Positions 2,435-25,076 of a stretch of 26,025 bases of DNA are shown one piece after another (the first letter of the stretch is position 1; each line of letters starts with the position of its first letter). The DNA lies in IMG/VR virus record IMGVR_UViG_3300030389_002260, positions 1 to 26,025 of that record, one strand, 5' to 3'. The position numbers and the translations under genes were made by a program. The DNA is from a virus. The notes beneath the pieces were generated by a model that worked only from the letters and a program-made list of their open reading frames with translations, was not told where the DNA came from and searched no databases.

Positions 2435-3442
2435 TTAAGTTCTCCTTTTTATATAACCACTACAGGCTAATCTCCAATCCTCTTGAAGAATAGTTTCAGC
2501 CATTTCTACTGATTCTCTAAATTTATGTTCTTTAAATAAATTCCAACTTTTGATAGCAGGTATAGCAACACGCTCTAAAAATACATTATTTAATTTAACG
2601 TCCTGCCTATAATCACCGTCTAAAACAAACTTAAGTTCTTTATCAAAAGTTTTAGTGTCTTTAACTAAAGGTATAGTTTTTTCATGTAAAGCTTCAGCAT
2701 ACTTTTTATCGTTATAATTATGTAAACCTACTCCTACACTTATCTTAGAAACTTTATCTTTCCATATAGGAAAATCTATATATAAATGTAAGTTATCTGT
2801 AAAATGGTAATAAGTTCCTAATTTAACTCCGATCATTGCTGCCATGTATTCATGTAATACACTAAAGTGAACCATGTTGGCTCCAAAACAACCCCATATT
2901 AAATCGTTAGACCGATTAGTTACAGTCATCCGTAAAGCACCGTCTCTAATTTTGAAATATATTTGTGTGTTGCATGGGACGTCTTTACCCTCACCTTCTA
3001 AATGATTTAAATCTTTTTCCGCTCCCCACATTTGTAAAACACAACGTCTATCATCAGGGTTCTTTTTTAACATTCTTATTATCGTTTTTAATTGGTCTGT
3101 GCCAAACATCCATCTCCACCTATACCCATAAGCTCCCCATAAAGTTTTTCCATCATCACTGTATTCCCGCATACGTGGAACATAATGTTCCATAGAAGCT
3201 AAATCTCCTCTACCTGCCAACATCCATAAGCTTTCGGCTAAGTGAAAAAAAGGATTACAGTCTCTATAAGGGTCTTGTAAAACTCTTACGTTTGGGTATT
3301 TATAAGAAATACAAACTGGTGATTGTATTTCCCATACCCTACCATTTCTAGTTTCTTGTTCAATGTAATTGCCTCTATAACCGAACATATCAAGTCCTTT
3401 ATAAAAACCATCGTTTACATTAAATGCTTGTATTGTATGCAT
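2435..3442 (-). CDS. Thymidylate synthase family enzyme (dUMP methylase or hydroxymethylase)
   Basis: The enzyme transfers a one-carbon unit from methylene-tetrahydrofolate to C5 of a pyrimidine nucleotide. Visible landmarks are phosphate-binding arginines in PDDRRCVLQ (R132, R133), the catalytic Cys157 in VPCNTQ, RSND (R177, S178, D180), N189 in WGCFGAN, and H219/Y221 in DNLHLY. Asn at the position equivalent to E. coli N177 argues for dUMP rather than dCMP as substrate. At 335 residues it is longer than ThyA (264). It has one extra residue in the GLPFN-equivalent loop and lacks the IWDEWA segment of ordinary ThyA, so it may make 5-hydroxymethyl-dUMP instead of dTMP. A good ribosome binding site (AAGGAG) precedes the ATG, which lies 23 bases inside the upstream gene. 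Confidence 0.88.
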   Translation of the reverse strand: MHTIQAFNVNDGFYKGLDMFGYRGNYIEQETRNGRVWEIQSPVCISYKYPNVRVLQDPYRDCNPFFHLAESLWMLAGRGDLASMEHYVPRMREYSDDGKTLWGAYGYRWRWMFGTDQLKTIIRMLKKNPDDRRCVLQMWGAEKDLNHLEGEGKDVPCNTQIYFKIRDGALRMTVTNRSNDLIWGCFGANMVHFSVLHEYMAAMIGVKLGTYYHFTDNLHLYIDFPIWKDKVSKISVGVGLHNYNDKKYAEALHEKTIPLVKDTKTFDKELKFVLDGDYRQDVKLNNVFLERVAIPAIKSWNLFKEHKFRESVEMAETILQEDWRLACSGYIKRRT

Positions 3443-4289
3443 ACTTACTCCTTGTCCTACCTTGTCCCTTTAAAATTCTTGAATACTTGTCAAACTCACA
3501 TAAACCTCCCTCTACTTCTCTTAACTCAAAAGGATGTCTATTAGAGTTAAAAATGCTTTTAGGTAATAAATACCTGCATATTTTATATAGTTCATTCATC
3601 TCACCTACCCAGTCGTGAGACTTCTTTTTAAAATCTAAATTTCTACCTGTCAACCTGTTTAAACCTCTCATTGCTCCGGGACCTGCATTAGCCCATGTTA
3701 ATCTGTCTTTAGCGTCTCTCCCAAATTTAGTAAAACTTAAATCTGTTACAATTTCATAAGCCATAAATGGACCTTGAAAAGGAAAGCTTTTTATATATAA
3801 CCACATATCCTGCATAGAGTTTTGACGTGCGTTTGCTTTTGCTAATATTTCTTTTCTTTGCTCCCACATATAATCAATACATAAACTAATACCTTTTAAC
3901 TTATCGTAACCGTCTGGGCTTTTAATAACGTAAGCACCAGTAATCCATTGATCCTGTTCTCTAATTTTTTCGTTTGCTAATTCAGAGTCCCAATTAATAT
4001 GTAGGTTGTGTTTTAATAAAGTCTCACCTGTTTGGATTAAATTAAACCACCTAAATATAACAGTAGCCATAAAGACTTCTTCAGAATTTTCTAAAGGGTT
4101 ACGTATATTATCTATATACCATCTACTAGTTCTATCATCGTTCCTAAAAACTTGACAAAACTTATACTCTTTTAATATAGGGTCTTCAGTCCAAGGAGGA
4201 GTTTGATTTAACTCCTCCTTTTGAATTCTTATATTTTCTCTTTCTTCGATCCAATATAAATAAGTTTTTAACTCTTCTTTTAAAAACAT
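3420..4289 (-). CDS. aGPT-pyrophosphorylase / 5-hmdU kinase helical-domain family protein
   Basis: This 289-residue protein has the features I associate with the family annotated as alpha-glutamyl/putrescinyl thymine pyrophosphorylase or 5-hmdU DNA kinase helical domain, a DNA-glycosylase-like helical fold. They are PPWTEDPIL (31-39) followed by KFCQVFRNDDRTSRW (43-57), a GPFMAYEIVTDL segment (173-184) and the NAGPGAMRGLNRL loop (201-213). Family members in phages with hypermodified thymine activate 5-hydroxymethyl-dU in DNA. There is no P-loop kinase motif, so this is the stand-alone helical type. Its neighbours, a synthase homologue just downstream and a methyltransferase upstream (TAATG overlap of one base), fit base modification. 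The exact reaction is inferred, and the family call comes from motif recall without a search. Confidence 0.72.
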   Translation of the reverse strand: MFLKEELKTYLYWIEERENIRIQKEELNQTPPWTEDPILKEYKFCQVFRNDDRTSRWYIDNIRNPLENSEEVFMATVIFRWFNLIQTGETLLKHNLHINWDSELANEKIREQDQWITGAYVIKSPDGYDKLKGISLCIDYMWEQRKEILAKANARQNSMQDMWLYIKSFPFQGPFMAYEIVTDLSFTKFGRDAKDRLTWANAGPGAMRGLNRLTGRNLDFKKKSHDWVGEMNELYKICRYLLPKSIFNSNRHPFELREVEGGLCEFDKYSRILKGQGRTRSKYAYNTSI

Positions 4290-5140
4290 TAAACAGAGTC
4301 TTTTTTACTTAATCTCCAAAAACAATTATTTGAAGTCTCTGGATAAAAAGTAGCTGCAGCAACTCTTAAAAATTGTCTACCAAATCTTTCCTCTAACATA
4401 GATAATTGTTCTTTAGTCCATATCTCTTTTGCATTTTGAGATTGATTAAATTTACGCATTTGTGTAAACACACCGACCACTGACTCTAAATTAAAATATT
4501 TTTCTAATAGTTCTTTTAATTCTAAAAAGCCCCACTCGTAAATATGATCTTCTGGAAGTTTATCGTTAGACCCATCATGATTAGGTGTAGAGATAAATAC
4601 AGTCCCGTCTTTTCTTAAAACCCTACTTAGTTCTGATATCCAAGGCTCTACAGCTTCTCTAGGCATATGTTCTATAACTTCTGTAGACCAAGCTACATCT
4701 ATAGATTCATCTTCATGAGGTAATATTGGATCAATACTAACGTCTTTTATTTCTAAAGTAGCGTTAAAGTTTTTAATCCATGTAGTGTCTTCGAGATCAC
4801 AACCACCACCAGACCAATACCTAATTTCCTGAAAAGATGCAGGATCGATATCGTAACCCCAATAAGAAGCAACTACATCTGATTTTTTAACAACAAAAGA
4901 CTTATATAATGTCCTTAACACCCATACCTCTCCACACCCTATTTCTAAAGTATCTAAAGGTCTTCCTTTCTTTTTAGCATCGTCTATTAAATACGATGCA
5001 ATTTTTTCGTATCTAGACATATGAGCTATCTCATCCGGTCTAAAGTTAGCGAATACACCTGCATGAGAAATATTCATCCGAGTATTTTTACACTCGTTTG
5101 GATTTTGCTCAGCAGTTAATTTTTTTCTTATACTTGGCAT
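4289..5140 (-). CDS. Class I SAM-dependent methyltransferase
   Basis: A Rossmann-fold methyltransferase of 283 residues. SAM-binding motif I is LEIGCGEVWV (65-74), motif II is the acidic end of GYDID (95-99), and a later motif is DVAWSTEVIEHMPREA (148-163), followed by LSRVLRKDGTVFISTPNH (171-188). The EVIEHMP form is typical of small-molecule or glycan methyltransferases (methyltransferase 11/23 type). It is not a DPPY or PC motif of a classical DNA N- or C5-methylase. It is the first gene after a promoter-like sequence and has a strong ribosome binding site (AAAGGAG). Position in front of the thymine-modification genes suggests that it works on a modified nucleotide or nucleic acid. The substrate cannot be read from the sequence. 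Confidence 0.85.
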   Translation of the reverse strand: MPSIRKKLTAEQNPNECKNTRMNISHAGVFANFRPDEIAHMSRYEKIASYLIDDAKKKGRPLDTLEIGCGEVWVLRTLYKSFVVKKSDVVASYWGYDIDPASFQEIRYWSGGGCDLEDTTWIKNFNATLEIKDVSIDPILPHEDESIDVAWSTEVIEHMPREAVEPWISELSRVLRKDGTVFISTPNHDGSNDKLPEDHIYEWGFLELKELLEKYFNLESVVGVFTQMRKFNQSQNAKEIWTKEQLSMLEERFGRQFLRVAAATFYPETSNNCFWRLSKKDSV

Positions 5141-5169: not shown

Positions 5170-5198
5170 ATTATAGTATACAAAAAAGCTCTTTACAA
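5170..5198 (-). promoter_or_regulatory. Sigma70-like promoter for the methyltransferase-to-polymerase operon
   Basis: On the minus strand the 52-base gap before the methyltransferase contains TTGTAA, exactly 17 bases of spacer and a perfect TATAAT. Transcription would start near 5163, leaving a leader of about 20 bases that ends in the AAAGGAG ribosome binding site. The -35 box overlaps the stop codon of the helicase gene. AT-rich DNA gives chance matches, but the exact -10 box, ideal spacing and location in the largest gap of the block all support it. Confidence 0.5.
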
Positions 5199-6686
5199 AT
5201 CAAAATATTTTCTTGTTGTTGGTTCGATTAAATATAATCGCTTTTTCGCCCTTGTTATACCAACGTAAAACACTCTGGTTTCATCGTCAGGATCACGTTG
5301 ATAATTATTAAAAACTTTATGTGTTATATCTGTAAACAATATAACATTGTCCGCCTCTGCTCCTTTTGCAGCATGTATGGTAGATATACGAATACGAGGT
5401 TGTTTTAAAACTTTTTCTCCTCTTCTCAACATAGCTTGTAAATAACTTCTTTCTGTTATAGAAATCATATCTAAACATTCAAACCATCTACCACGTGGTA
5501 AAACACCAACTATATTTTCTACGTAAGTTCTATCTACTTTTTCATCTCCTTCAAACATTTTTAATTGTGTTTTAGCTACCTTTTTTATATATCTTAAAAA
5601 TGTTCCACAATCTTGTTTGCTTAATTTTTCGTCTCTATTAAATTTTTCCCAGTTCCTTACACCCTCTAACTTTATGGCTGTAATACTTGGGTTACCTTTA
5701 ACTTCAAAAAACCATCCCTCATGCTTACAGTGATCTATAATATTATTTAATAAATAATTAGTTCTTGCTAAAACTAGCCAAGTTCCTTCACTCATGTCTA
5801 TATGTTCAAAGCCTCTTTCCCAACTAACTAGTCCTTGTTCCTCTTTAGGTTTCCAAGATTTAGCAACTCTTTTAGATAATCTTCCTACTGTGTCTCTAGC
5901 TAGTTTGTGTATGGAGCTAGGTATCCTATAACTTTGATTTAAAACAGTAGCATTTTTACAATTATTAATTAAATAATCTACGTCAGCCCCCGCCCATTTA
6001 TATATGGCTTGGTCGTCATCACCTGCTATATAAATTTTATGACTGCCTTCTATAATCTTATTAACTACAGACCATTGCAATGGGCTTAAATCTTGAGCTT
6101 CATCTATAAATAAAGCGTCTAACTTAGGTGCATAACCTCTTTGTAAAAAGAAAGAAAGCATATCTGTATAATCGTATAATCTTCTAACCTTTTTATAAGC
6201 CTCATACCCTCTACTAAATCTATCTAAAGCATACCAATTTACTGCATCTTCTACCTCATGCCATACATCTTCTAAAGATTCTTTCTTCATCCTAGCTAAA
6301 TTATCTATAAACATTAATCTATCATCTTTAGACATACCATATATATTTCCGTCATCCGTATTTTGTGAACCTGTAAGTTTTATATTTAATTTATCGTTTA
6401 ATTCAATCAAATGAGTTCTCTCAAAAACATCTTCTTTATTTAAACCTAATTGATGAAAGCTCAGAGAATGTAATGTTTTAAAATAAGGTAAATCTTTTTT
6501 AGACAATGAAAATTTATGCATTGCTCTTTCGATACCTTCGTTTACAGCTCTTTTAGTAAAAGTAAAAAACCCAATTTTATCTGGGGACACACCGCTATCT
6601 AATTCGTTTTCTATTAATTGTAATAAAGTAGACGTTTTACCTGTTCCCGGTGGTCCTAATATCACTTGAGTTTTTTCAGGCAACAT
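5193..6686 (-). CDS. UvrD/Rep-like superfamily 1 DNA helicase
   Basis: An ATP-dependent DNA helicase of 497 residues. Motifs in order are the Walker A GPPGTGKT (11-18), motif Ia FTFTKRAVNE (41-50), Walker B DEAQD (195-199), motif III GDDDQAIYKWAGAD (222-235), motif V STIHAAKGAEADNVILF and motif VI VFYVGITRAKKRLYL near the C terminus. At under 500 residues it is much shorter than UvrD or Rep (about 670-720), so some accessory subdomains are reduced, as in other phage versions. It sits two bases from the AlkB-like gene and upstream of the polymerase operon. A role in strand unwinding at the fork or in repair fits, since no DnaB-type helicase is visible in the window. Confidence 0.93.
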   Translation of the reverse strand: MLPEKTQVILGPPGTGKTSTLLQLIENELDSGVSPDKIGFFTFTKRAVNEGIERAMHKFSLSKKDLPYFKTLHSLSFHQLGLNKEDVFERTHLIELNDKLNIKLTGSQNTDDGNIYGMSKDDRLMFIDNLARMKKESLEDVWHEVEDAVNWYALDRFSRGYEAYKKVRRLYDYTDMLSFFLQRGYAPKLDALFIDEAQDLSPLQWSVVNKIIEGSHKIYIAGDDDQAIYKWAGADVDYLINNCKNATVLNQSYRIPSSIHKLARDTVGRLSKRVAKSWKPKEEQGLVSWERGFEHIDMSEGTWLVLARTNYLLNNIIDHCKHEGWFFEVKGNPSITAIKLEGVRNWEKFNRDEKLSKQDCGTFLRYIKKVAKTQLKMFEGDEKVDRTYVENIVGVLPRGRWFECLDMISITERSYLQAMLRRGEKVLKQPRIRISTIHAAKGAEADNVILFTDITHKVFNNYQRDPDDETRVFYVGITRAKKRLYLIEPTTRKYFDL

Positions 6687-6688
6687 AT

Positions 6689-7273
6689 TTATATACCTGT
6701 CCTAAAAGTTAAGTTTATTCTTGTCTTTATTGGTGCCTCTACGTCTAATATATTATGTGTAGATTTAAGTTGACTTTTACCATCAAATATAATTACATCA
6801 CCGTCCTCTAATAAAAAATATTTTGTGCAATCTAATTGTTTATACCTTACATCTATTTCAGAGGTATTAGTTTTATCTTTAATATTTTTTGCATATTGTC
6901 TCCAACCAAATACTCTAGGTGCACCAAATGAAACAGAAACTACTAAATCTTCTTCTGTAGGCACTGTATCGGAATGGTAAGGGATACCTTTTCCTTCTTC
7001 GCTATAAAAACCACACAAACAAAAATTAAATTCTACTTCCTCATTTAGTTCTTGTTTAATAAGTGTTTGTAGATTATCTTTAATATATTTCATTGGTTTT
7101 GTCCATGGGTCTGGTTTATAAACTTTACCTGCATAATTAAAGTTTTTATTCCCAAAAGCTCTAGTCGGTCTGCCTTTAACTAAATTACCTTTATACAATC
7201 TTATGTTAGGTTCATCCCAATAATCTATCTTAGGATCAAAACCAGATAGACCACCTTTTATAAATTTAATCAT
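6689..7273 (-). CDS. AlkB-like 2-oxoglutarate/Fe(II) dioxygenase
   Basis: A 194-residue dioxygenase of the AlkB type. The iron ligands are H100 and D102 (IPYHSD) and H173 (KSTHN). The 2-oxoglutarate-binding arginines are R185 and R191, in the diagnostic RxxxxxR spacing (RINLTFR). The segment NFCLCGFYSEEGKGIPYH (83-100) is the expected strand and turn before the HxD motif. AlkB enzymes remove methyl groups from damaged bases, and related enzymes can oxidise modified bases. The gene lies between a helicase and a small membrane protein in the replication block. Repair of alkylated DNA is the default reading. A part in base modification is possible because the thymine-modification genes are close by, but that is only contextual. 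Confidence 0.9.
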   Translation of the reverse strand: MIKFIKGGLSGFDPKIDYWDEPNIRLYKGNLVKGRPTRAFGNKNFNYAGKVYKPDPWTKPMKYIKDNLQTLIKQELNEEVEFNFCLCGFYSEEGKGIPYHSDTVPTEEDLVVSVSFGAPRVFGWRQYAKNIKDKTNTSEIDVRYKQLDCTKYFLLEDGDVIIFDGKSQLKSTHNILDVEAPIKTRINLTFRTGI

Positions 7274-10980: not shown

Positions 10981-12417
10981 ATGTATAAGTTTAAAACTGT
11001 TCCTTATGAACATCAACATAAAGCTTTAAAAGAAAGTTGGAATAAACGTTCTTATGCTTATTTTATGGAGATGGGCACAGGTAAATCTAAAGTATTAATT
11101 GATAATATAGCTATTTTATATGATAGAGGAGCTATTAATACAGCAGTTATTATTGCACCTAAAGGTGTTTATCTAAACTGGTTAGAAAAAGAAATACCTG
11201 CTCATATGCCAGATCATGTAGAAACATATATTGCTTTATGGAAAGCAGCACCTACAAAAAGAAAGCAAGAAGCTTTATTAAAACTATTTACAGAAAGCGA
11301 TAAACTAAGGATATTAATAATAAACGTTGAGGCTTTTTCTTCTCAAAAAGGTAAAACCTTTACAGAAAAGTTTGTAAGGTCTACAGACTGTTTATTAGCT
11401 ATAGACGAAAGCACCACTATAAAAAATCCAAAAGCTAATAGAACTAAAAATCTTTTAAAAATAAGCCATGAGGCAAAGTTTAAAAGAATATTAACAGGGT
11501 TTCCTATTACTAAATCACCTATGGATTTTTATACACAGTTTAAATTTTTAGATACTAACATTTTAGGCTATGAATCTTTTTACGCTTTTCAAAACCATTT
11601 TGCAGAAGTTGTATCTAGGTCTGTAGGATCACATAGTTTTAGAGAAATTAAAAGTTTTAGAAACTTAGAAGAACTTAAAAAATTGACAAAACAACATAGT
11701 TATAGAGTTTTGAAAAAAGACTGTTTAGATTTACCCGATAAAATTTATAACAAGCATTACGTAGAACTAACACCTGAGCAAAATAAACTATATAAAGAAA
11801 TGAAAAAAGATGCGTTAGCTACCTTAAATGATTTAGAAACAGTAACAGCTAATTCTGTAATGACACAATTATTAAGATTACATACTATGTTATGTGGTTT
11901 TGTAAAGACTGATACAGATAGCATTATAGATATAAAAAATAACAGGTTAGACGCATTATTAGAATTAATATCTTACAATGATAATAAAGTTATTATATGG
12001 GCTAATTATGTTCATAATATCAAAGCTATAAAAGAAGTATTAGAAAAAACTTATGGTGGTGGTAGTGTTGTTAGTTATTATGGCAGCACAGGTCTTGATG
12101 ACAGAAAACAAGCTATTGAATTATTTCAGTCTCAAGAAAGTGATGTTAGGTTTTTTGTAGGTAATCAAATGACAGCAGGGTATGGTATAACTTTAACTAG
12201 TGCAAACAATGTTATTTATTATTCTAATAGTTTTGATTTAGAAAAACGTTTACAATCAGAGGATAGAGCTCACCGCATAGGTCAAAATGATAAAGTTACT
12301 TATTATGACTTAACTGTAAAAGACACTATAGATGAAAAAATTGTAAAAACTTTATGTGCTAAATTAGATTTAGCTCAACAAGTATTAGGTGATGGGTTTC
12401 AATCTTGGTTAAATTAG
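10981..12417 (+). CDS. SNF2-type superfamily 2 helicase/translocase
   Basis: The only plus-strand gene in the window. The 478-residue protein has the two RecA-like domains of an SNF2 enzyme: motif I MGTGKSK (31-37), motif Ia IIAPKGVYLNW (57-67), the motif II variant DEST (142-145) followed by TIKNP, and motif III RILTGFPITKSP. In the second domain lie GYGITLTSANNVIYY and motif VI QSEDRAHRIGQ. Phage members such as T4 UvsW-like and SNF2-like proteins remodel forks or recombination intermediates. It has no extra DNA-binding domain. It faces the replication operon and ends in a four-base overlap of stop codons with the virion block, so its orientation and probably its timing differ from its neighbours. 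Confidence 0.93.
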   Translation: MYKFKTVPYEHQHKALKESWNKRSYAYFMEMGTGKSKVLIDNIAILYDRGAINTAVIIAPKGVYLNWLEKEIPAHMPDHVETYIALWKAAPTKRKQEALLKLFTESDKLRILIINVEAFSSQKGKTFTEKFVRSTDCLLAIDESTTIKNPKANRTKNLLKISHEAKFKRILTGFPITKSPMDFYTQFKFLDTNILGYESFYAFQNHFAEVVSRSVGSHSFREIKSFRNLEELKKLTKQHSYRVLKKDCLDLPDKIYNKHYVELTPEQNKLYKEMKKDALATLNDLETVTANSVMTQLLRLHTMLCGFVKTDTDSIIDIKNNRLDALLELISYNDNKVIIWANYVHNIKAIKEVLEKTYGGGSVVSYYGSTGLDDRKQAIELFQSQESDVRFFVGNQMTAGYGITLTSANNVIYYSNSFDLEKRLQSEDRAHRIGQNDKVTYYDLTVKDTIDEKIVKTLCAKLDLAQQVLGDGFQSWLN

Positions 12418-13208
12418 ACAGGCAATCGTCTTATAATTTCTATATCTCTTAAAAAATCATCCATATTAGCTAAACTTAAACCTAATCTTTGATCTGGTGC
12501 TCCGCCACCACTGCCACCTCTTATATTAAAATTCATCATATCGTTTTGAAGTATCGGGTTTACCTCTACTCCTTTTATAGGATCAAAAACTAAATCTCCT
12601 ATGCCTCCTGCAGGAGGTGGAGATTGAACAAGTTGTGATTCTTTTTTATCTTCTTCATCTACCCCTTCTGGGAAAGTAGGTATTTCTTGATTCAAAGCAT
12701 CCATAATTGTTATTCTATATGGGTCATAACCAAACCCTAGTTGTGGAAAAAATCCTGCTCTTTGTCCTTGTATAAGTCTTAATAAAGGTTCAGGCATTTG
12801 CCTAATTAAATCTTTAGTTTGTTGTTCTTCCGTAGCGGGTGGAAGATCTAATCTTTCAGGTTTACCAACCATTTGGTCTTGCAAAATACCACCGTCTTGC
12901 ATACCTCTTATAGAGTCAAAATCTGCAGTAGCCTCCATAAGTTCATTAATTCTATTTTTCATAGTTTTAGTTTTATTCGAATTAAAATTATCTACTTCTA
13001 TATCATACACTGATGGATTATCTTTTTTAGATTTACCTCTAAGTTGTGTTATTTCGAAATCTACTTTTTTAAGATTGTTTCTAATATTAGTGCCGTCTCG
13101 CATAATATCTTGCGTATCCATCTTATCAAGGTTATTACCTAATTGATTAGTCATATTAGATAAAGATACTATGCCTTCTTCTATATTATTTAATTTATCA
13201 GATATCAT
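12414..13208 (-). CDS. Unrecognised virion-block protein, 264 aa
   Basis: The last gene of the virion block. The N-terminal half is polar and helical (residues 1-100, coiled-coil-like around LNNIEEGIVSLSNMTNQLGN). The middle is Pro- and Gln-rich (ERLDLPPATEEQQ), and the end has a Gly-rich loop (RGGSGGGAPDQ) before a final amphipathic helix. I recognise no family. Its ATG overlaps the stop codon of the 1010-residue gene by four bases (ATGA), so it is probably made with that protein and could be a minor virion component. Its stop overlaps that of the convergent helicase gene. Confidence 0.75.
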   Translation of the reverse strand: MISDKLNNIEEGIVSLSNMTNQLGNNLDKMDTQDIMRDGTNIRNNLKKVDFEITQLRGKSKKDNPSVYDIEVDNFNSNKTKTMKNRINELMEATADFDSIRGMQDGGILQDQMVGKPERLDLPPATEEQQTKDLIRQMPEPLLRLIQGQRAGFFPQLGFGYDPYRITIMDALNQEIPTFPEGVDEEDKKESQLVQSPPPAGGIGDLVFDPIKGVEVNPILQNDMMNFNIRGGSGGGAPDQRLGLSLANMDDFLRDIEIIRRLPV

Positions 13209-16200
13209 TCTTCTAATAACCTTACTTCTTCGGGTATTTCATCATCACTGATTATACCATCATAATTACGTGCTATTAAACCACCTATAGGAGAACTTAA
13301 TTTAATTTGTTTCATAGATTTAAATCTATTTTCTATAAAACTTTCTAAAGCAGTCTCATCAGTAATAAGTCTTGTTAAAAGATCATAACTTTTTTCAGCC
13401 TGTGTTTTATCAAATAATCTAAATCTAACGCTCATTGCATTTAGAGGACCAAGTGCAAATTGAAAAAGTCTTTGTCCTAAAGACACAGGTTGTGTAATCT
13501 GTCTTACTATGTCTTTTGCATTTTGTGCACTTTCTTTAGAGATTGAGGACATAATTCTTTTATTACTTAATTCTGCTGTTTCTGCTAACTTTTTTAAATT
13601 ATTAATATATTTTTTATCGAAGAAAATTTTAAACGATTTTTCAAAATTAGGGTCGTTAATAGTTTTTAATAAACTATCTAAATCTATAATTTTACCCATA
13701 AAAGGGTCTCTTGTAGTTATATCATTTAAAATTATTTTTTGTAAATGAAATTGAAATTGATTTTGTAATTCAGGTGAGGTTTTTAAAATACTAGCTAATT
13801 GTCGTCTTCTGCTATTTAATTGTAAAAAACTTTCATTAGGGTTGCCTTTAAATATGTTATAAATATTACTAATAACATCATCCGTATTACCTAAAAATTG
13901 AGCATATCTTGCATTTATTTTTTCTATTGCTTCTTGATAATTAACTTTAGCTTTAGCTACATAATCTAAATCTCTTGCAGATTGTCTAAATATTTTTTGA
14001 TCTTGTTTTGTAGGATAAAGTCTTTTAAAAATACCACTGTGATTATTTAAAAATTCTTTCACAGCGTTTTGTCTAGTTGAGGGTTTTTGTCTAGCTATTT
14101 CATCTTTTAATCTTTCACCGAATGCAAATCTTAAATCCGTAATTAGTGCATCATCTCCTAATTCTAAAACATCGTAAACATCATCAAAATATTCATTTCT
14201 ACTAGCGTTTCTCACGCTTTTGTTCATAGTTTCGTCAAATAGTTGAGAGGGTTGTATTTTTCCTGCTCTTAAATCACCTATAAATTGTTTTCTAGCTAAT
14301 TGATTTGCTTTTGTGTATTGATCTTTCGCAAAATTAAATGCTTCTGTTGGTGTAAATTCACGTTCACCCACAGTAACTTTATTTCCTGCTGAATCTGCTT
14401 GTTTTAAAGTAACACTAATGTCTTCATCAATAGCTTTCATTAGTTGAGTTATTTCTTTAGGGTCTAGGTCTACTTCCTTTTTACCTCCTCTTATTCTATT
14501 TAATAGTTTACGGGTTTCGTAAAGTTCACCTAAACTTAAAGGACTTATAAATTTACCTTGTGCATCTCTATTCGATAATTTAAGAAATAATTGTTTAGAA
14601 GCATTAGCGTCTTTACCAAAGACCCTTTCTGCAAAAGTCGGATCATCTAAAGCTGTGAATAAAGAATTAGATTTCTTTTGTTTAAGCAACCCTTCTAGTG
14701 TTTTTCTAGTTTTGGTTACTGTTGCTCTGAATGGTGCAGTGCTTAATTTTACTGTTTCATATAAAGCATCTTGTGCTTCAAGGTTTTGTTTTATTAAGTT
14801 TGATAAATAAGTTCCTCCCTCCTCAGGTATATCTTTATATAAATGTATTCCTAAATCTCCTGCTGCTCCTTCATATCCCGGTATTTTGCTCGTTGTAATA
14901 GCTAAGTTTTCTTGTTTTAATTTTATGTTATTTCTAAATCTATCTAGTAATTTTTGTTTCTTTTCTCCTGCTGCAGATTTAAAATTTCTACCGAAAACTT
15001 CTATTGCTTGTTCACCAAAATCCTCTCCAAATTCCTCAGCTAATTCTGTTGCAAATTTAACTAATGACTCTTCATTGTCTTGTAAGTTTGATAAAAAAGC
15101 TCTCCTGACTAAGGGGTCAGTTCCGGGAGTGTTGATGAAAGCGTCCTCTAAAGCTAAAAGTTCTTCAGATTTATACTTTTGTCCTAATGTAGGTTTAAAT
15201 CCGGGAACTACGTTAGGTTCTATAGTAGATTTTGCTTCTTTTCTAGCATTTTCTAACATGTCATTCATTTTATTAACAACATCGTTAGGCATTTTTTCGC
15301 CTTTTAAAGCTCTATACAAACCCCTGCCTAAAAAAGCTAAAGAATTAAAAACAGCAGTTCCACCACCTGCAAAAAGTGCTGGATTGATTGATTCTTGGAA
15401 TAGATCAGCATAATCTTTGTCTTGATTCAAACCAAATAAATGTTGCCCTACTGCTAATTTAGCAAATTCACCAGCTAATGTTCCTACTCCTGAACCAGCT
15501 GCTGTTCCGCCACCAGTTAATAAATTTTGAACAACTCCTGCAGGTAATTGTTTAAAAGTTCCTGTTAAAGCTATCTGTGCGGCAATATCTAAACCTAATG
15601 GTAAAGCCTCTTCCGCAATAAATTCACCTATATCTCCTGCATCAGCTCCCGGACGATTAAATGCGACTAATCGATCACCTTTATTAGCTTGAAAAACTGT
15701 GCCTATGCCTTGAATGTCTTCTATATAATAAGGTTCTTTTCCTAATTGTTTTGTTAATAATTTTTTACTGTCTTCAAAAGATAATTGTCTTGAACCAAAT
15801 CCTGCTTTTAATCTAGTTAAAAAATCTGCTCCAGTAGTATTTATATCAAGACCTAAATTAGCAGCAGCTTGTATTTTTTCTTCATCGTCTAACCACTCAC
15901 CTAAAGGTCTGTATAAATTTTGATAAGCGTTTAAAATAAAATCTGTTTTTAAAAAAGGTGTTAGGTTTATGTTTGGTAATTTATCTTCAGTTTTCTCTGC
16001 TATATCAGCTATTTTTTGTGCTCCTACACCAACTTTTTGTATAGAACTTTGAAATGTTGTTGGATCGTAATCTACCGGTGTTCGAGGGGCTTCTAGTCTT
16101 TTAACTAAATTACTATAATAATCTTGAACTGATGGATTTTCATTAAAAAATTTACTTCTTTCTTCTTCGGACAAAGCTGAAATACTTTGTAAAAGATTTG

Positions 16201-16237
16201 ATTCTTTTGGACTTAAAAGAGTAATAGGCTCAGCCAT
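13205..16237 (-). CDS. Large internal virion (ejection-type) protein, 1010 aa
   Basis: The longest gene in the window. The protein is mostly helical, with many Lys/Glu-rich stretches. It has one less polar region, about residues 205-310, that includes PLGLDIAAQIALTGTF and a Gly/Ala-rich GGGTAAGSGVGTLAGEF segment, which could insert in or cross a membrane. The size, helical nature and place at the end of the virion block match ejected internal proteins of short-tailed phages (such as T7 gp15/gp16), but no transglycosylase or protease motif is visible. It is separated from its upstream partner by one base. The assignment as an ejection protein comes from general features and context, not recognised homology. 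Confidence 0.72.
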   Translation of the reverse strand: MAEPITLLSPKESNLLQSISALSEEERSKFFNENPSVQDYYSNLVKRLEAPRTPVDYDPTTFQSSIQKVGVGAQKIADIAEKTEDKLPNINLTPFLKTDFILNAYQNLYRPLGEWLDDEEKIQAAANLGLDINTTGADFLTRLKAGFGSRQLSFEDSKKLLTKQLGKEPYYIEDIQGIGTVFQANKGDRLVAFNRPGADAGDIGEFIAEEALPLGLDIAAQIALTGTFKQLPAGVVQNLLTGGGTAAGSGVGTLAGEFAKLAVGQHLFGLNQDKDYADLFQESINPALFAGGGTAVFNSLAFLGRGLYRALKGEKMPNDVVNKMNDMLENARKEAKSTIEPNVVPGFKPTLGQKYKSEELLALEDAFINTPGTDPLVRRAFLSNLQDNEESLVKFATELAEEFGEDFGEQAIEVFGRNFKSAAGEKKQKLLDRFRNNIKLKQENLAITTSKIPGYEGAAGDLGIHLYKDIPEEGGTYLSNLIKQNLEAQDALYETVKLSTAPFRATVTKTRKTLEGLLKQKKSNSLFTALDDPTFAERVFGKDANASKQLFLKLSNRDAQGKFISPLSLGELYETRKLLNRIRGGKKEVDLDPKEITQLMKAIDEDISVTLKQADSAGNKVTVGEREFTPTEAFNFAKDQYTKANQLARKQFIGDLRAGKIQPSQLFDETMNKSVRNASRNEYFDDVYDVLELGDDALITDLRFAFGERLKDEIARQKPSTRQNAVKEFLNNHSGIFKRLYPTKQDQKIFRQSARDLDYVAKAKVNYQEAIEKINARYAQFLGNTDDVISNIYNIFKGNPNESFLQLNSRRRQLASILKTSPELQNQFQFHLQKIILNDITTRDPFMGKIIDLDSLLKTINDPNFEKSFKIFFDKKYINNLKKLAETAELSNKRIMSSISKESAQNAKDIVRQITQPVSLGQRLFQFALGPLNAMSVRFRLFDKTQAEKSYDLLTRLITDETALESFIENRFKSMKQIKLSSPIGGLIARNYDGIISDDEIPEEVRLLEE

Positions 16238-16238
16238 G

Positions 16239-17975
16239 TTATTGAATACCTATATCTATACCAAGAGATTTAGCAGCGTCAATAGCAATGTCTGAGGCAG
16301 ATTTTTGAGGAGGTCCAATATTTTCAATATTGTTCTTTTCTTGAGATTGTATTGGTTGATTTAAATATTTTTGTAAATAAACTTCATATGGTCCTCTTAC
16401 ACTCCCAATAGATCTTCCATAAATACTCGCAAGATTTAAATATCTTTGAAATTCTTCATAATTAATATTATTCGGATCTAATAAAGTTGATATAGGACCA
16501 GTAAAATCTTTTTTAATATCTTCCTCACTTAAATTATTAGATTTACGAAACGATTCTGTAATTTTAGTTAAATATGGTTTTGCTAATCCGTCAATTTCAT
16601 TTTCAGCTTTATCTAAAGCTCCTGCTGTAAAATTAATAATTGCTCTAGCAGCACCCTCACGTGTGCCTGTATTAGCACCTATGGTGCCTAATGCATTTAT
16701 AATATCTTTATCTGATACCGCCCTACTTTCTTGACCTTTTAATAATAATGAATAATAAGCTAATTCTAAAAATAATGCTTTATAGATGGCATCATTCGCA
16801 ACTTCTGCTCCAAGTTGAGACCATTTGAAACCTATAGGATTGCCTTGATCATCTACAGCGTTTTCTAATCGATTTGCTGATGTTGCATTATTATCTGTCG
16901 TGTTTAAATTTTCGAAAAGTTTTTGTGTATTCTTAAGTTTTTCTTCTTCCTCTTTAGGTAAATTTACCATTATTAATCTTTCTAAATTCTTTACCTCAGT
17001 TGAGAACTGACCTAGAAATCCTCTAATAGCACCTGTAAAACCAGCTATATCTGCAGGTGCACTACCTGCTTGTGTGGCTATTTCTAACATTTGGTTTACA
17101 GGACCAATAATATTAAACGCACCAGCAACTCTGTTTGCCGAGTTACCAACTTGTTTTAAATAGTCTTGGTATTTAGCACCACCACCACCGATAGTTAAAA
17201 AAGCCTCAGCATCTCCAGTATTTCTTACCTGTAATACAGCAGCACCGGCAGGTGCGAATGAAGAGGTGCCATCTTCATTCATTATTTTCTTTAACAGTTT
17301 TTCATTACCATCTCGATCAGTAACTATTTTACCAGTGCCAAAACCTTTTGTTGGAAGATCTATATCATTAGGATCAAAAATATTTACTACCTTTTCTCCA
17401 GCTTTGCTGTTTTTATCTTCCGCTAATGCTACTTTTAATAATTCACCGTAAACAAGATCTTTTCTTTTATTTACTGCTTTTCTTACTTCATTTTGTGTTT
17501 CTTTTATTGAAGTTTTAGCTTCTCTAAAACCTTGTTGGAACTGTGGTGATTGACCAGCAGCAATAACTTCTTTTATTAAACCTTTTAAAAAGCCTGAATC
17601 TTGTGTGCCTCTGGGGTCTATTTGTGCAGTTAAAATATTCGCTATATCATCTATATTACCTAAATTTATATCGTCTCTTGAAATACCGCCTAATACGTCA
17701 TCTATACTTATATCACTTGTAATTTCGTCTAATCGATTACCAGTTGGTGCAGTTCTTGTTGCCCCAGAAGTAGGAATATTAGCAGTAGGTAAATTAGCTG
17801 TGGGTATATTATTAACCATAGATACACCACCTGTTTGCGGTGCATTTACTCCGGGAAGATTAACATCTTTAAGAGTAGTAACACCTCCACTTGGTATAGT
17901 GCCACGTCTATAAATATCTAACGGATATAAACCACCGCTTTGAGCTATCATTCTTTCTAAATCTTGTAAATTCAT
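16239..17975 (-). CDS. Putative internal virion protein, 578 aa
   Basis: A 578-residue protein that starts MNLQDLERMIAQSGGLYP. A Pro/Thr/Asn-rich linker (about residues 25-80) contains a small repeat of the form IPTANLPTANIPTSG. A long helical region follows, with Gln- and Lys-rich stretches. No enzymatic motif is visible. It lies between the Gly/Gln-rich protein and the 1010-residue protein with one-base gaps, an arrangement like the internal core genes of podoviruses. The role in the virion is inferred from position and size. Confidence 0.7.
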   Translation of the reverse strand: MNLQDLERMIAQSGGLYPLDIYRRGTIPSGGVTTLKDVNLPGVNAPQTGGVSMVNNIPTANLPTANIPTSGATRTAPTGNRLDEITSDISIDDVLGGISRDDINLGNIDDIANILTAQIDPRGTQDSGFLKGLIKEVIAAGQSPQFQQGFREAKTSIKETQNEVRKAVNKRKDLVYGELLKVALAEDKNSKAGEKVVNIFDPNDIDLPTKGFGTGKIVTDRDGNEKLLKKIMNEDGTSSFAPAGAAVLQVRNTGDAEAFLTIGGGGAKYQDYLKQVGNSANRVAGAFNIIGPVNQMLEIATQAGSAPADIAGFTGAIRGFLGQFSTEVKNLERLIMVNLPKEEEEKLKNTQKLFENLNTTDNNATSANRLENAVDDQGNPIGFKWSQLGAEVANDAIYKALFLELAYYSLLLKGQESRAVSDKDIINALGTIGANTGTREGAARAIINFTAGALDKAENEIDGLAKPYLTKITESFRKSNNLSEEDIKKDFTGPISTLLDPNNINYEEFQRYLNLASIYGRSIGSVRGPYEVYLQKYLNQPIQSQEKNNIENIGPPQKSASDIAIDAAKSLGIDIGIQ

Positions 17976-17976
17976 T

Positions 17977-19431
17977 TTATACTGAACCTAATCCTGCACC
18001 CAAACTCATATCAAATTGATTACCTATCGGTATTACAGATGTTGTAGAACCTGCTAACGGTGCAAGACCACCAAATATTCCTGCTACATTAGCTATAGTT
18101 TGCATAGGTAAGTTATATTGACCAACAAAGTTTTGGTAATCTAAATCAAGACCTGCTTGCTGCATACCTCTTTGTGTGCCACCTATATTACCTAATAATT
18201 GAACATCTGCTCTTTGTAGAGCAGGGAGCTGTCTACCTATATTAAGTTGTTGTGTGCCTAATTGTCCTAATCCTTGTCCTAAACTTGAACCTAAAGCACC
18301 TGTATAACGTCCTGCACCTAAACCTAAAGTTCCAAGTTGTGAACCGAGTTGACCGATACCTAGACCTACTTGTCGACCTGCAGTTCCTGCAGCTTGTCCT
18401 AATCTACCTAGTTGTTGTGCTAACTGTGATTGTTGAGCACCACCTAATTGTGTAGCACCTAGTAAACCTTGTAATCCGGCTTGTTGACCGGCTAATGTTT
18501 GTTGTCCTAATGCACCAGTTTGTCCTGCTAATTGTGATAATAATCTAGCTTGATTTGCTTGTCTAGCTTGTTGTGCTTCAAATGCTTGTTGTGCAGCATT
18601 TTGTGCTAAACCAAACCCTTGTGCTCTTATTCCACCTACTGCTTCTGCTGCTCCACGACCTGCACGTCTAGCTAATTCTTCGGAAGCTAATCTACCTCTA
18701 GCTCCACCAAAAGCACCACTTCTAACTTGTTGTGCTCTATTAGCTATATCTGATGTAGCTAAACCTTCGCCAACATCACGTAATGTTTGTTGCACTACAG
18801 CGTCTTCAAAAGGATTAAAGAAAGCACTCGTTGACCTAGGATCAAAACCTCTTGTAGATAAAAGACCTGCAAGACCTGCTTGACCTAAACCGCCTAATGC
18901 AGAAGAAATAAAGGGAGCTTGACTTCCTGCAAGACCTCTAAAGCCCATCTGTGCCTCCCTTACCCCTCGACCTACATCACCTGCTCCCATACGAGCAGCT
19001 TGTTCTGCTTGTCTATATAAATCTAACTCAGGAGCTAAAGAACCTTCTAATCTTGAAACACCTCTACCTGCTAAATCTCTAGCTTGTGCTAAACCAGTAG
19101 CAATTTGTTCTCTACCAGTTTGTCCGCTACGCATTAATTCTTGTGCAGCTTGTTCTGTTAAAGAAGCACTTCTATCTAAAAAAGGTCTATATGAACCTAT
19201 AGCTTGTTCACCTAATTCAAAAGCTCGTCTTTCTTGTGGTGTAAAGTCAGCTATACGTTGCCCTGTATATGTAAAAGGGTTAGTATCTGGTAAACCTAGT
19301 TGTGAAAACTGATTAACTAATTGTTGATTTAATAAAGGGAATAATCCGGGAATACCTGCTCCGCCACCTGCAATCATGTCTTGCACTATTCTGTTAGGAG
19401 CTATTATTTGTTGTTGTGATTCTACTGCCAT
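17977..19431 (-). CDS. Gly/Ala/Gln-rich putative internal virion protein, 484 aa
   Basis: A 484-residue protein of strongly biased composition. The N-terminal third has a conserved-looking motif TSAFFNPFEDAVVQQTLRDV (residues 201-220), similar to the NPY/F-x-D-V-x-x-T-L pattern seen in marine phage structural proteins. From about residue 270 to 400 the sequence is low complexity, rich in Gln, Leu, Gly and Ala with repeated LGQ and GQL units. Such low-complexity helical regions are typical of ejected proteins that unfold through a narrow tail. Its ATG overlaps the upstream stop by one base (TAATG). The function is inferred. Confidence 0.72.
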   Translation of the reverse strand: MAVESQQQIIAPNRIVQDMIAGGGAGIPGLFPLLNQQLVNQFSQLGLPDTNPFTYTGQRIADFTPQERRAFELGEQAIGSYRPFLDRSASLTEQAAQELMRSGQTGREQIATGLAQARDLAGRGVSRLEGSLAPELDLYRQAEQAARMGAGDVGRGVREAQMGFRGLAGSQAPFISSALGGLGQAGLAGLLSTRGFDPRSTSAFFNPFEDAVVQQTLRDVGEGLATSDIANRAQQVRSGAFGGARGRLASEELARRAGRGAAEAVGGIRAQGFGLAQNAAQQAFEAQQARQANQARLLSQLAGQTGALGQQTLAGQQAGLQGLLGATQLGGAQQSQLAQQLGRLGQAAGTAGRQVGLGIGQLGSQLGTLGLGAGRYTGALGSSLGQGLGQLGTQQLNIGRQLPALQRADVQLLGNIGGTQRGMQQAGLDLDYQNFVGQYNLPMQTIANVAGIFGGLAPLAGSTTSVIPIGNQFDMSLGAGLGSV

Positions 19432-20477
19432 TATACTAATTTCGTCCTTATTTGTTCTAAGTTAGCTATACCTTGTTCGTAATCTCCACCACCTAAATAA
19501 TCTACCATAACTTTTGGTAAAACGTATTCTTGATCACTTAAGTATACAGGAATATCATCACTTGTTGGTGTTCCGGGACCTCTTATTTCTCCATCAGGTC
19601 TAACCATCATAGCATCAAGTTTAGGTCCTCCGTCTTTATAACCTATTTTTCCACCAAACATTGCTCTATTTGCTCCAACGAAATTTCTTAAATTTGGAAA
19701 CTGTGGTGTATTTACTACTGAACCTTGTATATAAGGGTTATTTTGTAAAGGGTTTACTCCCGGTCTAAGACCTTGATCAGCAAAACTAAACCTACCCTCC
19801 GTTCCGTATGGGTCTTTACCATAAATAGCTTCGACTAATTTAGGAAATATTAATTGTGTTCCAAGTTGAGTTGTTAAAGGGTTTTCTTCAGCAAATTCTT
19901 CTAAACTACCTATACCTCCTTTAATTCTATCTAATACAGTTTTATCTCCTGCTACTTTAGCTGCCTCAGCAGCAGCTTGGGCTTTTTCACCGAAAAGCTG
20001 ATTCGCACCTATATCAGATATAAACGCATCAGATTTTTTATAACCTCCTTTTACTTTAGTATAGCCTTCATCTTTTAATATTTTATCTAAAGCAGATGAT
20101 TTTTCTCCTATACCTAATAAACTACCTAAAGTCGAATCACCAACATTAGCAAAAGCTGAACTAAATGCTTGTCCGGGGTTTGAAAAAGTAGCTCCAAACC
20201 CTTGACCCTTTGCACCAAAACCACCGGCTAAACCAGCAGCAAGTAACATATTTTGTGCATAATTATCACTAGCAGATGTTTTCGTTCCAATACCAGCACC
20301 GATTGCAGCACCGGGAAGTCCTCCTATAACAGCACCAATAGTAGCCCCGATTGCAGGACCTAATTTTTTAAATGCTTTTCTAAGTTCGCCACCTATTCCA
20401 TACTCAGGTGCAGACTCAAAATCTTTTTCTACCATATTAGATAAAGAACCTATTCCTTGTTTTTCTAACATTTCCAT
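19431..20477 (-). CDS. Virion protein with glycine zipper and GPGT-SDDIP motif, 348 aa
   Basis: Two features stand out in this 348-residue protein. Residues 40-64 are a hydrophobic glycine zipper with Gly at exactly 40, 44, 48, 52, 56, 60 and 64, a pattern known to pack membrane helices and pores. The C terminus has IRGPGTPTSDDIPVYLSDQE, a motif shared by many marine phage virion proteins, followed by YVLPKVMVDYLGGGDY. The segment between is polar and contains Asn/Pro-rich linkers. The start overlaps the basic protein gene by 13 bases; ATG codons at 20477 and 20471 are both possible. A virion protein that enters the host envelope during DNA ejection is a reasonable inference. Confidence 0.75.
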   Translation of the reverse strand: MEMLEKQGIGSLSNMVEKDFESAPEYGIGGELRKAFKKLGPAIGATIGAVIGGLPGAAIGAGIGTKTSASDNYAQNMLLAAGLAGGFGAKGQGFGATFSNPGQAFSSAFANVGDSTLGSLLGIGEKSSALDKILKDEGYTKVKGGYKKSDAFISDIGANQLFGEKAQAAAEAAKVAGDKTVLDRIKGGIGSLEEFAEENPLTTQLGTQLIFPKLVEAIYGKDPYGTEGRFSFADQGLRPGVNPLQNNPYIQGSVVNTPQFPNLRNFVGANRAMFGGKIGYKDGGPKLDAMMVRPDGEIRGPGTPTSDDIPVYLSDQEYVLPKVMVDYLGGGDYEQGIANLEQIRTKLV

Positions 20478-20767
20478 CTTCTTCTAGCTTGTCTTAATCT
20501 TGAATTAGGGTTTTTTGCTGCTTTTGGGAATTTTTTCATTTGTCCTGCACTTCTTGCACAATAAGATTTCCTACGTTTTGCAGCTTTACTGCCTTTTTTA
20601 ACTTTTCCAGTTACTGCAGTTTTTAATTTAGATCCGGGATTTTTACGTCTATAAGCTTTTACACCTTTAGCAGTCATACCTGCTCCGCTTTTAGTAGGTC
20701 TGTAATTAGCCCCTTTGCCTTTAGTAGTGCGTCGTATAGATTTTTCTTTACGTTTTGCTTTAGCCAT
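20465..20767 (-). CDS. DUF6321-like highly basic protein, 100 aa
   Basis: A protamine-like protein of 100 residues with 37 Lys/Arg and a single acidic residue. It contains MTAKGVKAYRRKNPGSKLKT (31-50), then KRRKSYCARSAGQMKKFPKA, and ends RLRQARRRWKC. I recognise this as the DUF6321 pattern, common in marine phages. Its charge predicts tight binding to DNA or to polyanions. The location at the head of the virion block suggests a packaged or head protein, possibly helping to condense DNA, but no function is known to me. Its ribosome binding site (CAGGGAG) lies partly inside a predicted leader structure, so translation may be controlled. Confidence 0.85.
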   Translation of the reverse strand: MAKAKRKEKSIRRTTKGKGANYRPTKSGAGMTAKGVKAYRRKNPGSKLKTAVTGKVKKGSKAAKRRKSYCARSAGQMKKFPKAAKNPNSRLRQARRRWKC

Positions 20768-20876
20768 AAACTCCCTGCATACAAATCCTTATGTAATCTA
20801 TAAATAGATGCAGGTAGTCTTATTGACTCCTGAATACTTTATATCATAGCTATTATTATTAATAAGATAAAGTTTT
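20768..20876 (-). promoter_or_regulatory. Leader region with predicted RNA three-way junction before the basic protein gene
   Basis: A 109-base gap, the largest gene-free stretch within the late block. On the minus strand an outer stem (20808-20814 with 20774-20780, seven perfect pairs, CCTGCAT/ATGCAGG) encloses two smaller hairpins, ATCTAT-TT-ATAGAT (20796-20809) and TACA/TGTA (20780-20783 with 20792-20795). The 3' arm of the outer stem includes part of the ribosome binding site of the basic protein gene. A weak promoter-like TTTATC-17 bases-TATGAT lies upstream in the same gap. Both are predictions by eye. Confidence 0.4.
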
Positions 20877-21188
20877 TTAACTTATAGTAACAGTCACTGA
20901 GCCGACAGCTGAAGTAGCAGTTCCTACAATACATTTAGCTGTAAATGGTGTAGAGAGGTTTACAAACTCAAACCCATCCCATAGCTGTAAAGAATTAGTA
21001 GAAGTATTAAAAATTATAGTGCCGGTGTTAAAATTTTGTTTATCTCTATCTGTGGTATTTACTTGATAAGTATTTAATATATCTACTTGCCCTAAATTAA
21101 GTTCAAGTATTCTAATTAATTTATTAAATAATTCTGGACTTACTTCATCTACTGCAAAAGGCAAATTAGTCGGTAATAATTTAGCCAT
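20877..21188 (-). CDS. Small fibre- or neck-like virion protein, 103 aa
   Basis: A 103-residue protein with a helical N terminus and a beta-rich C terminus. The segment FNTGTIIFNTSTNSLQLWDG (53-72), followed by FEFVNLST, matches the repeat-type beta unit seen in phage tail fibres and appendages (gTxxyNTsTnxLqxwdG). The end is rich in Val, Ser and Thr. Its ATG overlaps the stop codon of the gp10-like gene by one base, so the two proteins are probably made together and could be joined in the tail. The family is not recognised beyond the fibre-like motif. Confidence 0.7.
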   Translation of the reverse strand: MAKLLPTNLPFAVDEVSPELFNKLIRILELNLGQVDILNTYQVNTTDRDKQNFNTGTIIFNTSTNSLQLWDGFEFVNLSTPFTAKCIVGTATSAVGSVTVTIS

Positions 21189-23059
21189 TACCTTCTACCG
21201 TCTTGCCTTACATCTACTCTTGTAGCTCCTAATCTCCAACCTGTGCCTGTATTAGCAGGTGCGTTATCATCATCTGATTCTACTCTAAATACAAACTGTC
21301 TACCCCTAGCTCTTATATGTTTTTGAGTTGTAGTAGAAGTAATTTCACTAGTATTAGCAGTAGATAAGTCCTCGTTAGGAAAGTTTCTAACTTTAGTAAC
21401 CATATTTAATTGACCGCCACCAGAATTAGATAAAAATTTAACGTCAGGTATTAACCTATTTATAAAAGAAAACGTATCACCTTCACCAATATCAATATCA
21501 GAACTTTCTATAAACACACCTGTCATAGGTTGACCATCATCATCAAAACCAGTTTCATGTTGATAAATATAATTATTAGCACTAGCTTGTGGGAAATTTT
21601 CCACCCCCTCGTCTAACCATGAAGTTCTAATAAGTTGTCCATATGTCCAAGTATCTTCTTCATAGTTATATATTACATATCTATCTATTTCATCAGACGA
21701 AGCAGAAGGATAAAACCATCCGACTTCATTTTTATTATTTATAGTAAACGCAAATATTTTATAAGCTTGATTTCTGTTAATATCACTAAATACATAATTT
21801 TGCACTGTGCACCTTACTTTATTAACAGCTCCTGTATAAGCATAAAAATTTTCATATCCCATCCATAAAACAGCTTTCGGTGTAGTTATAGCTGCTTTTG
21901 GAGCCATCAAACCGGAATTTTCATTAATTAAATTAATTCCAAAAGTAAAAGGAGGTCCTATAAATTGCATAGAATATAATGAGGTATCTGTCCATATTAA
22001 TATTTCTTGTCTAGCTTTGACTCCGCCTACAATTAAAGAACCAGAGGATAATCTTAAACTTCCTGCAGTATTAGTAGTTAAAGGTTTGAATACTGCAGGA
22101 TTTTCTTGATCACTAAAAGTTATTAACATAGGATCTAAAGTTCCTGTTCTAGCATCTTCATTAGCGTTTAATGGATCAGAACCTAAAACTATTAAATGCC
22201 TATCAGTTTCTGAAGTTATAACTTGCAGTCCTGCTGTAGGTGCTAAACTAGCTCCTGATAATGATGATAAAGCCACCGCCCTAGTGTTTAGACCATTAGT
22301 TTGATCCCAATAAAAAATGCCCCCTCCTCTAGGGTTTATAACTAAATCTTCACCAAAATTATCATGTGTCCAAAGTCTTAATTGATTTGATGCAGATATA
22401 GGTGAAGTAGAACCCCAACCTCCATCACCCCAAGTATTTACACCCCAACCACTAGATGCAACAAACACATCTAAACCAGTATTAATCTGATAAGCCCCTA
22501 CAACAGATCCCCCACCATTACCTGTGTCGCTAGAATTAGCAGTAACAGTTACTCCGCTAGTATTTTTAGCTTCTATTGTGTAAGAGTTTGCATTAACAAT
22601 ACTAGCTATTTGATATTCTTGATTTAATACAGCAGCAGTTATATTACCGCCTAAAGAAGAAGCACCAGAAAAAGTAACGAAATCATTTTTTACTGCTCCG
22701 TGTGCAGTATCTGTTACTGTTATTGTAGCGTCTGTATTAGTTGCAGAAAAAGTAACATCACCTGCTGCAGTAGTTGATCTTATAGGTGTTATGTCATTGT
22801 AAGATGAGCCTTCTAAAATATAATATTTTAAATTAGTTCCTATACCTAACAACTTTGTGCTACTTAAAGTAACCCAATTATGTAAAGCTCTTGCTGTGCC
22901 TAAAAAAGTATTAGCTGTTAATTTTAACCAACCCCCAAATTTTTCTGGTCTACCTTTTCTAAAACGAACTAAATTAACATCAAACCAACCACCTTCATTA
23001 TCATAGTCAGTGCCTTCTCTATTTATTCCCGGTCTGAATATTAATTTTTGTAATGCCAT
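21188..23059 (-). CDS. P22 gp10-like tail/head-completion protein, 623 aa
   Basis: The protein starts MALQKLIFRPGINREGTDYD, then GGWFDVNLVRFRKGRPEKFG. This opening is shared by a widespread set of marine phage structural proteins that I associate with the P22 gp10 (DNA-stabilising tail hub) family. The rest is beta-rich with many short aromatic turns (GWGVNTWGDGGWG near residue 206), as for a propeller- or barrel-type hub. At 623 residues it is longer than P22 gp10 (472). An inserted Thr/Ser/Val-rich domain at about 100-190, resembling an Ig-like fold, could account for this. It sits right after the lysozyme gene. The family link is tentative. Confidence 0.65.
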   Translation of the reverse strand: MALQKLIFRPGINREGTDYDNEGGWFDVNLVRFRKGRPEKFGGWLKLTANTFLGTARALHNWVTLSSTKLLGIGTNLKYYILEGSSYNDITPIRSTTAAGDVTFSATNTDATITVTDTAHGAVKNDFVTFSGASSLGGNITAAVLNQEYQIASIVNANSYTIEAKNTSGVTVTANSSDTGNGGGSVVGAYQINTGLDVFVASSGWGVNTWGDGGWGSTSPISASNQLRLWTHDNFGEDLVINPRGGGIFYWDQTNGLNTRAVALSSLSGASLAPTAGLQVITSETDRHLIVLGSDPLNANEDARTGTLDPMLITFSDQENPAVFKPLTTNTAGSLRLSSGSLIVGGVKARQEILIWTDTSLYSMQFIGPPFTFGINLINENSGLMAPKAAITTPKAVLWMGYENFYAYTGAVNKVRCTVQNYVFSDINRNQAYKIFAFTINNKNEVGWFYPSASSDEIDRYVIYNYEEDTWTYGQLIRTSWLDEGVENFPQASANNYIYQHETGFDDDGQPMTGVFIESSDIDIGEGDTFSFINRLIPDVKFLSNSGGGQLNMVTKVRNFPNEDLSTANTSEITSTTTQKHIRARGRQFVFRVESDDDNAPANTGTGWRLGATRVDVRQDGRR

Positions 23060-23503: not shown

Positions 23504-23504
23504 A

Positions 23505-25074: not shown

Positions 25075-25076
25075 TT

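Follow-up and report, generated by a model that had tools for sequence, protein, structure and literature searches.

What does a helical-domain protein of the 5-hmdU DNA kinase family do in a virus for which no kinase can be recognized? This question is raised by a replication-gene block on the minus strand of a virus record of 26,025 bases, the whole of which was analyzed and is called the window here. From upstream to downstream, the block contains genes for a gp34-like protein, an AEP primase, a 2OG-Fe(II) oxygenase, a UvrD-like helicase, a class-I SAM-dependent methyltransferase (MT), the helical-domain protein itself (HEL), a thymidylate-synthase-superfamily protein (TS), a small protein, and a family A DNA polymerase (PolA). 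All positions in the window given below refer to the minus strand. HEL, a 5-hmdU DNA kinase helical-domain (aGPT-PPlase1) protein of 289 aa encoded by an ATG ORF, had been singled out in an initial annotation as a stand-alone, P-loop-free member of its family, possibly a pyrophosphorylase with the base as its direct substrate.

The family assignment made there is borne out by profile searches. HEL matches PF18723 (HMUDK_hel) over residues 7-273 with E = 1.1e-43 and 150 bits (cut-off 25), and PHROG 2396 with E = 2.4e-58; judged by these sequence matches, its membership of PF18723/aGPT-PPlase1 is far beyond chance. The three motifs quoted earlier, PPWTEDPIL (residues 31-39), FCQVFRNDDR (44-53), and NAGPGAMRGLNRL (201-213), lie in the ORF at exactly 3420-4289, and no P-loop of the form [GA]xxxxGK[ST] was found in the HEL sequence, in agreement with the GxxxxGK[ST] motif having been reported as missing. 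HEL had no match to the amino-acid:DNA transferase family PF18724 at E<=0.1, no NCBIfam model matched it, and PADLOC returned no match for HEL or TS. Sequence searches of solved structures with HEL or a HEL profile gave chance matches only.

Structural likeness was assessed with an AlphaFold model of HEL based on 45 homologs (pLDDT 88.7). The highest ranking Foldseek match was the 5-PmdU glycinyltransferase of PaMx11 (8z2n; probability 0.98, E only 0.12), with DNA glycosylases next. VIA-align gave a Z of 10.8 to 8-oxoguanine glycosylase (Ogg) and of 10.7 to 8z2n over 219 residues, scores that helical folds can attain by chance, and the model also matches 8z2m and HhH glycosylases. With this caution, structure prediction returned the DNA-glycosylase-like fold that had been anticipated; a Pfam search at E<=0.1 gave no HhH-GPD match, and the HhH likeness is one of fold only. 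The PaMx11 enzyme, gp46 (8z2n and 8z2m), thus has a fold similar to that predicted for HEL, but the two share only ~8-10% identity and belong to different families by sequence (PF18723 for HEL, PF18724 for gp46).

That HEL lacks a P-loop had been seen as an anomaly. For the protein family it is ordinary, whereas at the level of the genome something is indeed missing. The HEL proteins of the M6-type phage AN14 and of Pam3 and PAKlein3 are P-loop-free; the P-loop kinase has a gene of its own immediately upstream, and a PF18724 transferase is encoded further upstream. In a ViI-like Kuttervirus, the kinase gene is found ~50 kb from the HEL gene. A P-loop-free HEL with the kinase as a separate gene is normal in M6-, PaMx11-, Pam3-, and ViI-like phages. 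In Microbacterium phage BouleyBill (L567:1357-2830), HEL is preceded by a P-loop kinase of a different family, PF18751, in the place of PF18748.

Neither the kinase PF18748 nor the transferase PF18724 was present in 20 long relatives of the window (40-84 kb), which include a 60.7 kb record whose HEL is 99% identical to that of the window. Because PF18748 is not sensitive to every genuine kinase and detects those of the PaMx11 type only weakly, we also trained a kinase profile on 125 HEL-neighbor kinases; at a threshold of E<=1, it had no match in 11 of the 20 long records (read end to end except G003). UvrD carries the only convincing P-loop common to these 11 records, none of whose small proteins has a convincing P-loop near the N terminus, and the GPPGTGKT motif of UvrD is the only P-loop found in the window. 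Some small proteins in the long relatives have GxxxxGK[ST]-like motifs (e.g., a protein of 191 aa with the motif at residue 124); we do not take these for kinases, since the motif lies a long way from the N terminus and the proteins do not match the kinase profile. The window's lineage thus appears to be without any kinase that a profile can match, which is unusual, although a kinase too diverged for any profile may exist. The proposed pyrophosphorylase activity on the base fares poorly on the same grounds, since no kinase or amino-acid:DNA transferase was found that would make or use such an intermediate.

HEL is stand-alone in having no P-loop of its own, but not in the arrangement of its gene. 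The gene for MT (283 aa; 4289-5140) lies directly upstream, its stop codon overlapping the HEL start by one base as TAATG, and HEL overlaps the downstream TS gene (2435-3442) by 23 bases; given these junctions, MT, HEL, and TS are closely packed and seem to be coupled in translation. TS matches PF00303 with E 3.1e-22, and its nearest solved structure is a CMP 5-hydroxymethylase (1.2e-24), compared with 1.4e-14 for the best thymidylate synthase. This greater closeness to the hydroxymethylase fits production of 5-hmdU, and TS is, on sequence, probably a dUMP hydroxymethylase that supplies it.

The cassette is bordered downstream by PolA (268-2172; PF00476, E 5.3e-63) and upstream by UvrD (5193-6686; PF00580, E 1.3e-31). 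Between TS and PolA lies a conserved 110-aa ORF (2102-2434) without a Pfam match, which belongs to a 77-member cluster in the 84 loci that were compared. UvrD is adjoined by the AlkB-like 2OG-Fe(II) oxygenase (6689-7273; PF13532), a member of a 40-member cluster across the 84 loci, which may have a repair role or act on a modified base. The region from 12414 to 26025 contains large genes, such as 13205-16237 and 21188-23059, that probably encode virion proteins and have little database similarity, except for a homolog of a stabilization-protein-like protein common to HTVC023P-type phages.

MT is a class-I SAM methyltransferase with intact SAM motifs. It matches PF13489 (Methyltransf_23) with E 2.4e-10, and its E-x-GCG (E66, GCG68-70) and DIDP97-100 motifs are invariant in 37 homologs. 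The MT model matches class-I methyltransferase folds with Z 15-17, the top match being CmoM with Z 17.3, a rank shared closely by many methyltransferases that score within about two Z units. CmoM methylates 5-substituted uridine in tRNA, and most of the structures matched by the MT model are methyltransferases of small molecules. NCBIfam matches of MT fall far below the cut-offs of UbiG and other models. MT was rejected as a canonical DNA methyltransferase, given the lack of a DPPY-like motif and an E of only 0.048 for N6_N4_Mtase, and a PADLOC match to mads_2 (1.2e-11) was read as generic methyltransferase similarity.

The association between MT and HEL is strict. In 117 of the 118 loci that contain both genes, MT immediately precedes HEL, and HEL is next door to 101 of 102 distinct MT genes with enough flanking sequence. 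Gene order hardly varies across 80 loci and reads UvrD-(one small gene)-MT-HEL-TS-PolA. In L042, L069, and L080, a conserved protein of ~166 aa that begins with MNIF (cluster c19) is encoded between UvrD and MT; this insert is present in many relatives and not in the window. The slot directly upstream of HEL, which holds the kinase in M6-type phages, Pam3, and PAKlein3, is filled by MT in the window's lineage. In a set of 217 distinct HEL loci for which flanking sequence was at hand, MT is present in 98 and a kinase-profile match in 62 (37 of these with the transferase as well), although the latter count may take in ordinary nucleotide kinases where the match lies kilobases from HEL. None of the 217 loci has MT together with a kinase near HEL, and none has MT together with the PF18724 transferase. 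After clustering at 72%, none of 122 representatives has both kinase and MT (Fisher p 3e-7), a value that overstates independence because the MT loci are essentially one clade on the HEL tree. For the same reason, the adjacency and the mutual exclusion of kinase and MT do not represent many independent events. In a mirror-tree test, MT and HEL were no more tightly coupled than the gene block as a whole, in which the evolutionary distances of all genes correlate at 0.81-0.97, and a search of 22,547 ORFs for MT-HEL, kinase-HEL, or other fusions yielded none.

Comparison of loci with the same backbone shows that MT, HEL, and TS, which lie between UvrD and PolA, behave like a single all-or-none cassette. 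All three genes are absent from 59 loci with window-like primase, UvrD, and PolA, where the gap between UvrD and PolA is 38-1022 bp, and from the annotated region of HTVC023P, 023Pt_psg01, and DSL-LC04. Other same-backbone relatives, whose proteins are mostly 39-57% identical to those of the window (up to 73% for the small protein), have kept HEL and TS and have MT replaced, by an FkbM methyltransferase plus a glycosyltransferase in L223 and L227 and by a putative glycosyltransferase plus a radical SAM protein in L421 and L446. At L421:6900-8938, L446:6831-9704, and L277:6838-8882, HEL is followed by a glycosyltransferase-like protein of 346 aa with no Pfam match and a SPASM radical SAM protein; the HEL cassette of L446 also encodes a cytidylyltransferase-cupin protein.

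Across the HEL tree, the type of partner (kinase, MT, FkbM, or TAGT) changed at least 17 times, and 21 loci have HEL with no recognized partner. TET-associated glycosyltransferases (TAGT) adjoin HEL elsewhere, 12 directly downstream and 1 directly upstream. In L220, L231, L243, and L263, TAGT (PF20691) is directly beside HEL, TS is nearby, and there is no kinase-profile match; these are probable glycosylated 5-hmdU loci. Such loci resemble the window in that HEL is adjoined by a transferase and TS is close by, but their donor is presumably a sugar, the transferase family is unrelated, and TAGT sometimes lies kilobases from HEL. PF18723-like proteins also occur on bacterial and archaeal plasmids (L565, L566, and 19 other plasmid records), where the annotations call them a nucleotide kinase or a base hypermodification protein; one Rhizobium case is beside a dCTP-deaminase gene.

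Taken together, the family and predicted fold of HEL, its strict adjacency to MT, the lack of a detectable kinase or amino-acid transferase, and the inheritance of MT, HEL, and TS as one cassette support a reading that we favor with slightly less than even confidence, namely that HEL binds DNA and presents the base as one half of an enzyme that modifies 5-hmdU after replication, the catalytic half being MT rather than a P-loop kinase. Judged by family, the TS-like enzyme would make 5-hmdUMP, which PolA would put into DNA. HEL, with its glycosylase-like predicted fold, would then bind duplex DNA and flip out 5-hmdU, after which MT would move a methyl group from SAM onto the exposed hydroxyl to yield 5-methoxymethyl-dU, and the modified DNA would resist host nucleases. 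We infer the joint action of HEL and MT from genomics and the product from the class of the partner; to our knowledge, 5-methoxymethyl-dU has not been described in phage DNA. More tentatively, it is possible that HEL is a general 5-hmdU-presenting adaptor, and that swapping of partners (P-loop kinase, class-I methyltransferase, FkbM methyltransferase, TAGT or another glycosyltransferase) around a core of HEL and hydroxymethylase leads to different hypermodifications, the one in the window's lineage being 5-methoxymethyl-dU.

Two observations speak most strongly against HEL and MT acting jointly: a phage that lacks HEL has a distant MT homolog, and conserved charged residues are dense in HEL. 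The latter bears on the catalyst: 25 positions of HEL are >=95% conserved across kinase, MT, FkbM, and TAGT contexts, and some 12 charged or polar residues hardly vary whatever the partner, so HEL could itself be the catalyst. Conserved residues of HEL include D52, R80, D183, R208, E260, and K268. It would then be a glycosylase-fold transferase like PaMx11 gp46, acting with some donor on 5-hmdU, while MT would act later or elsewhere. The rank of 8z2n among the Foldseek matches, the loci without a recognized partner, and the plasmid copies of HEL all point this way; we nevertheless consider it unlikely, as HEL does not match PF18724, it stays the same while its neighboring enzyme varies, and gp46 needs a phosphorylated base, 5-PmdU, for which no kinase was found in the window's lineage. 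The MT homolog in question is found in the podovirus MW202510 (L125/L562, 7372-8268; 26% identity), where it adjoins genes for an NTP-PPase-like protein, a thymidylate kinase, and a pyrimidine hydroxymethylase. Its place beside a hydroxymethylase in a HEL-less phage means that proteins of the MT family may not depend on HEL for their action. This neighborhood, like the small-molecule methyltransferases among the fold matches, would suit an MT that methylates the free nucleotide, converting 5-hmdUMP to 5-methoxymethyl-dUMP before polymerization, with HEL doing a separate job on DNA. We regard this as rather unlikely for the window's lineage, where MT seems to be coupled in translation to a HEL that is almost invariably next door, and the kinase of kinase-bearing phages acts on 5-hmdU in DNA, as described for M6 (PMC6449724).

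The two other explanations leave MT with a lesser part. A phosphorylated or aminoacylated 5-hmdU might still be made by a kinase too diverged to recognize, MT being an add-on tailoring enzyme. The weak detection of PaMx11-type kinases by PF18748 and the use of another P-loop family, PF18751, in BouleyBill make such a kinase conceivable, but it is improbable given that the trained kinase profile and the PF18724 search both give nothing and that, among the small proteins of the 11 long records, none has a convincing P-loop at its N terminus. Finally, MT and HEL could be functionally unrelated neighbors through joint inheritance of the whole replication block, as the correlated distances of all block genes would allow; this is improbable, since a constant backbone gains or loses the cassette as a whole and other transferases are swapped in beside HEL in relatives.

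The arrangement in which HEL presents the base to MT can be compared with the 5-hmdU kinase system of M6 and ViI (PF18748 plus PF18723), which has the same helical family and a hydroxymethylase-like TS, with the gene order partner-HEL-TS in M6-type phages as in the window. The difference is that the 20 long relatives of the window have no kinase or amino-acid:DNA transferase and that MT occupies the kinase position. HTVC023P-type pelagiphages, among the nearest isolates to the window by PolA, very likely belong to the same phage group. TS and aGPT-PPlase1 near PolA were published in 2022 for clades V, VIII, and IX of these phages, the pair being treated as M6-like (PMC9599517). The word methyltransferase is absent from the main text of that article, whose passages on the pair, as far as consulted, do not take up the adjacent MT, the missing kinase, or the partner swaps. 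Hence, the lone pair of aGPT-PPlase1 and TS is already on record, whereas the MT partner and the missing kinase seem new, although the original pathway papers may contain an earlier mention.

If HEL and MT do act together, a role would be assigned to a domain that hundreds of phages carry, and a new DNA base would be predicted in marine phages related to pelagiphages. A simple rule for hypermodification loci would follow, that is, to find HEL and read the product from its partner. The natural cassette swaps and the cassette-free relatives serve as comparisons, and decoration of DNA by MT, HEL, and TS could hide the virus from bacterial defenses.
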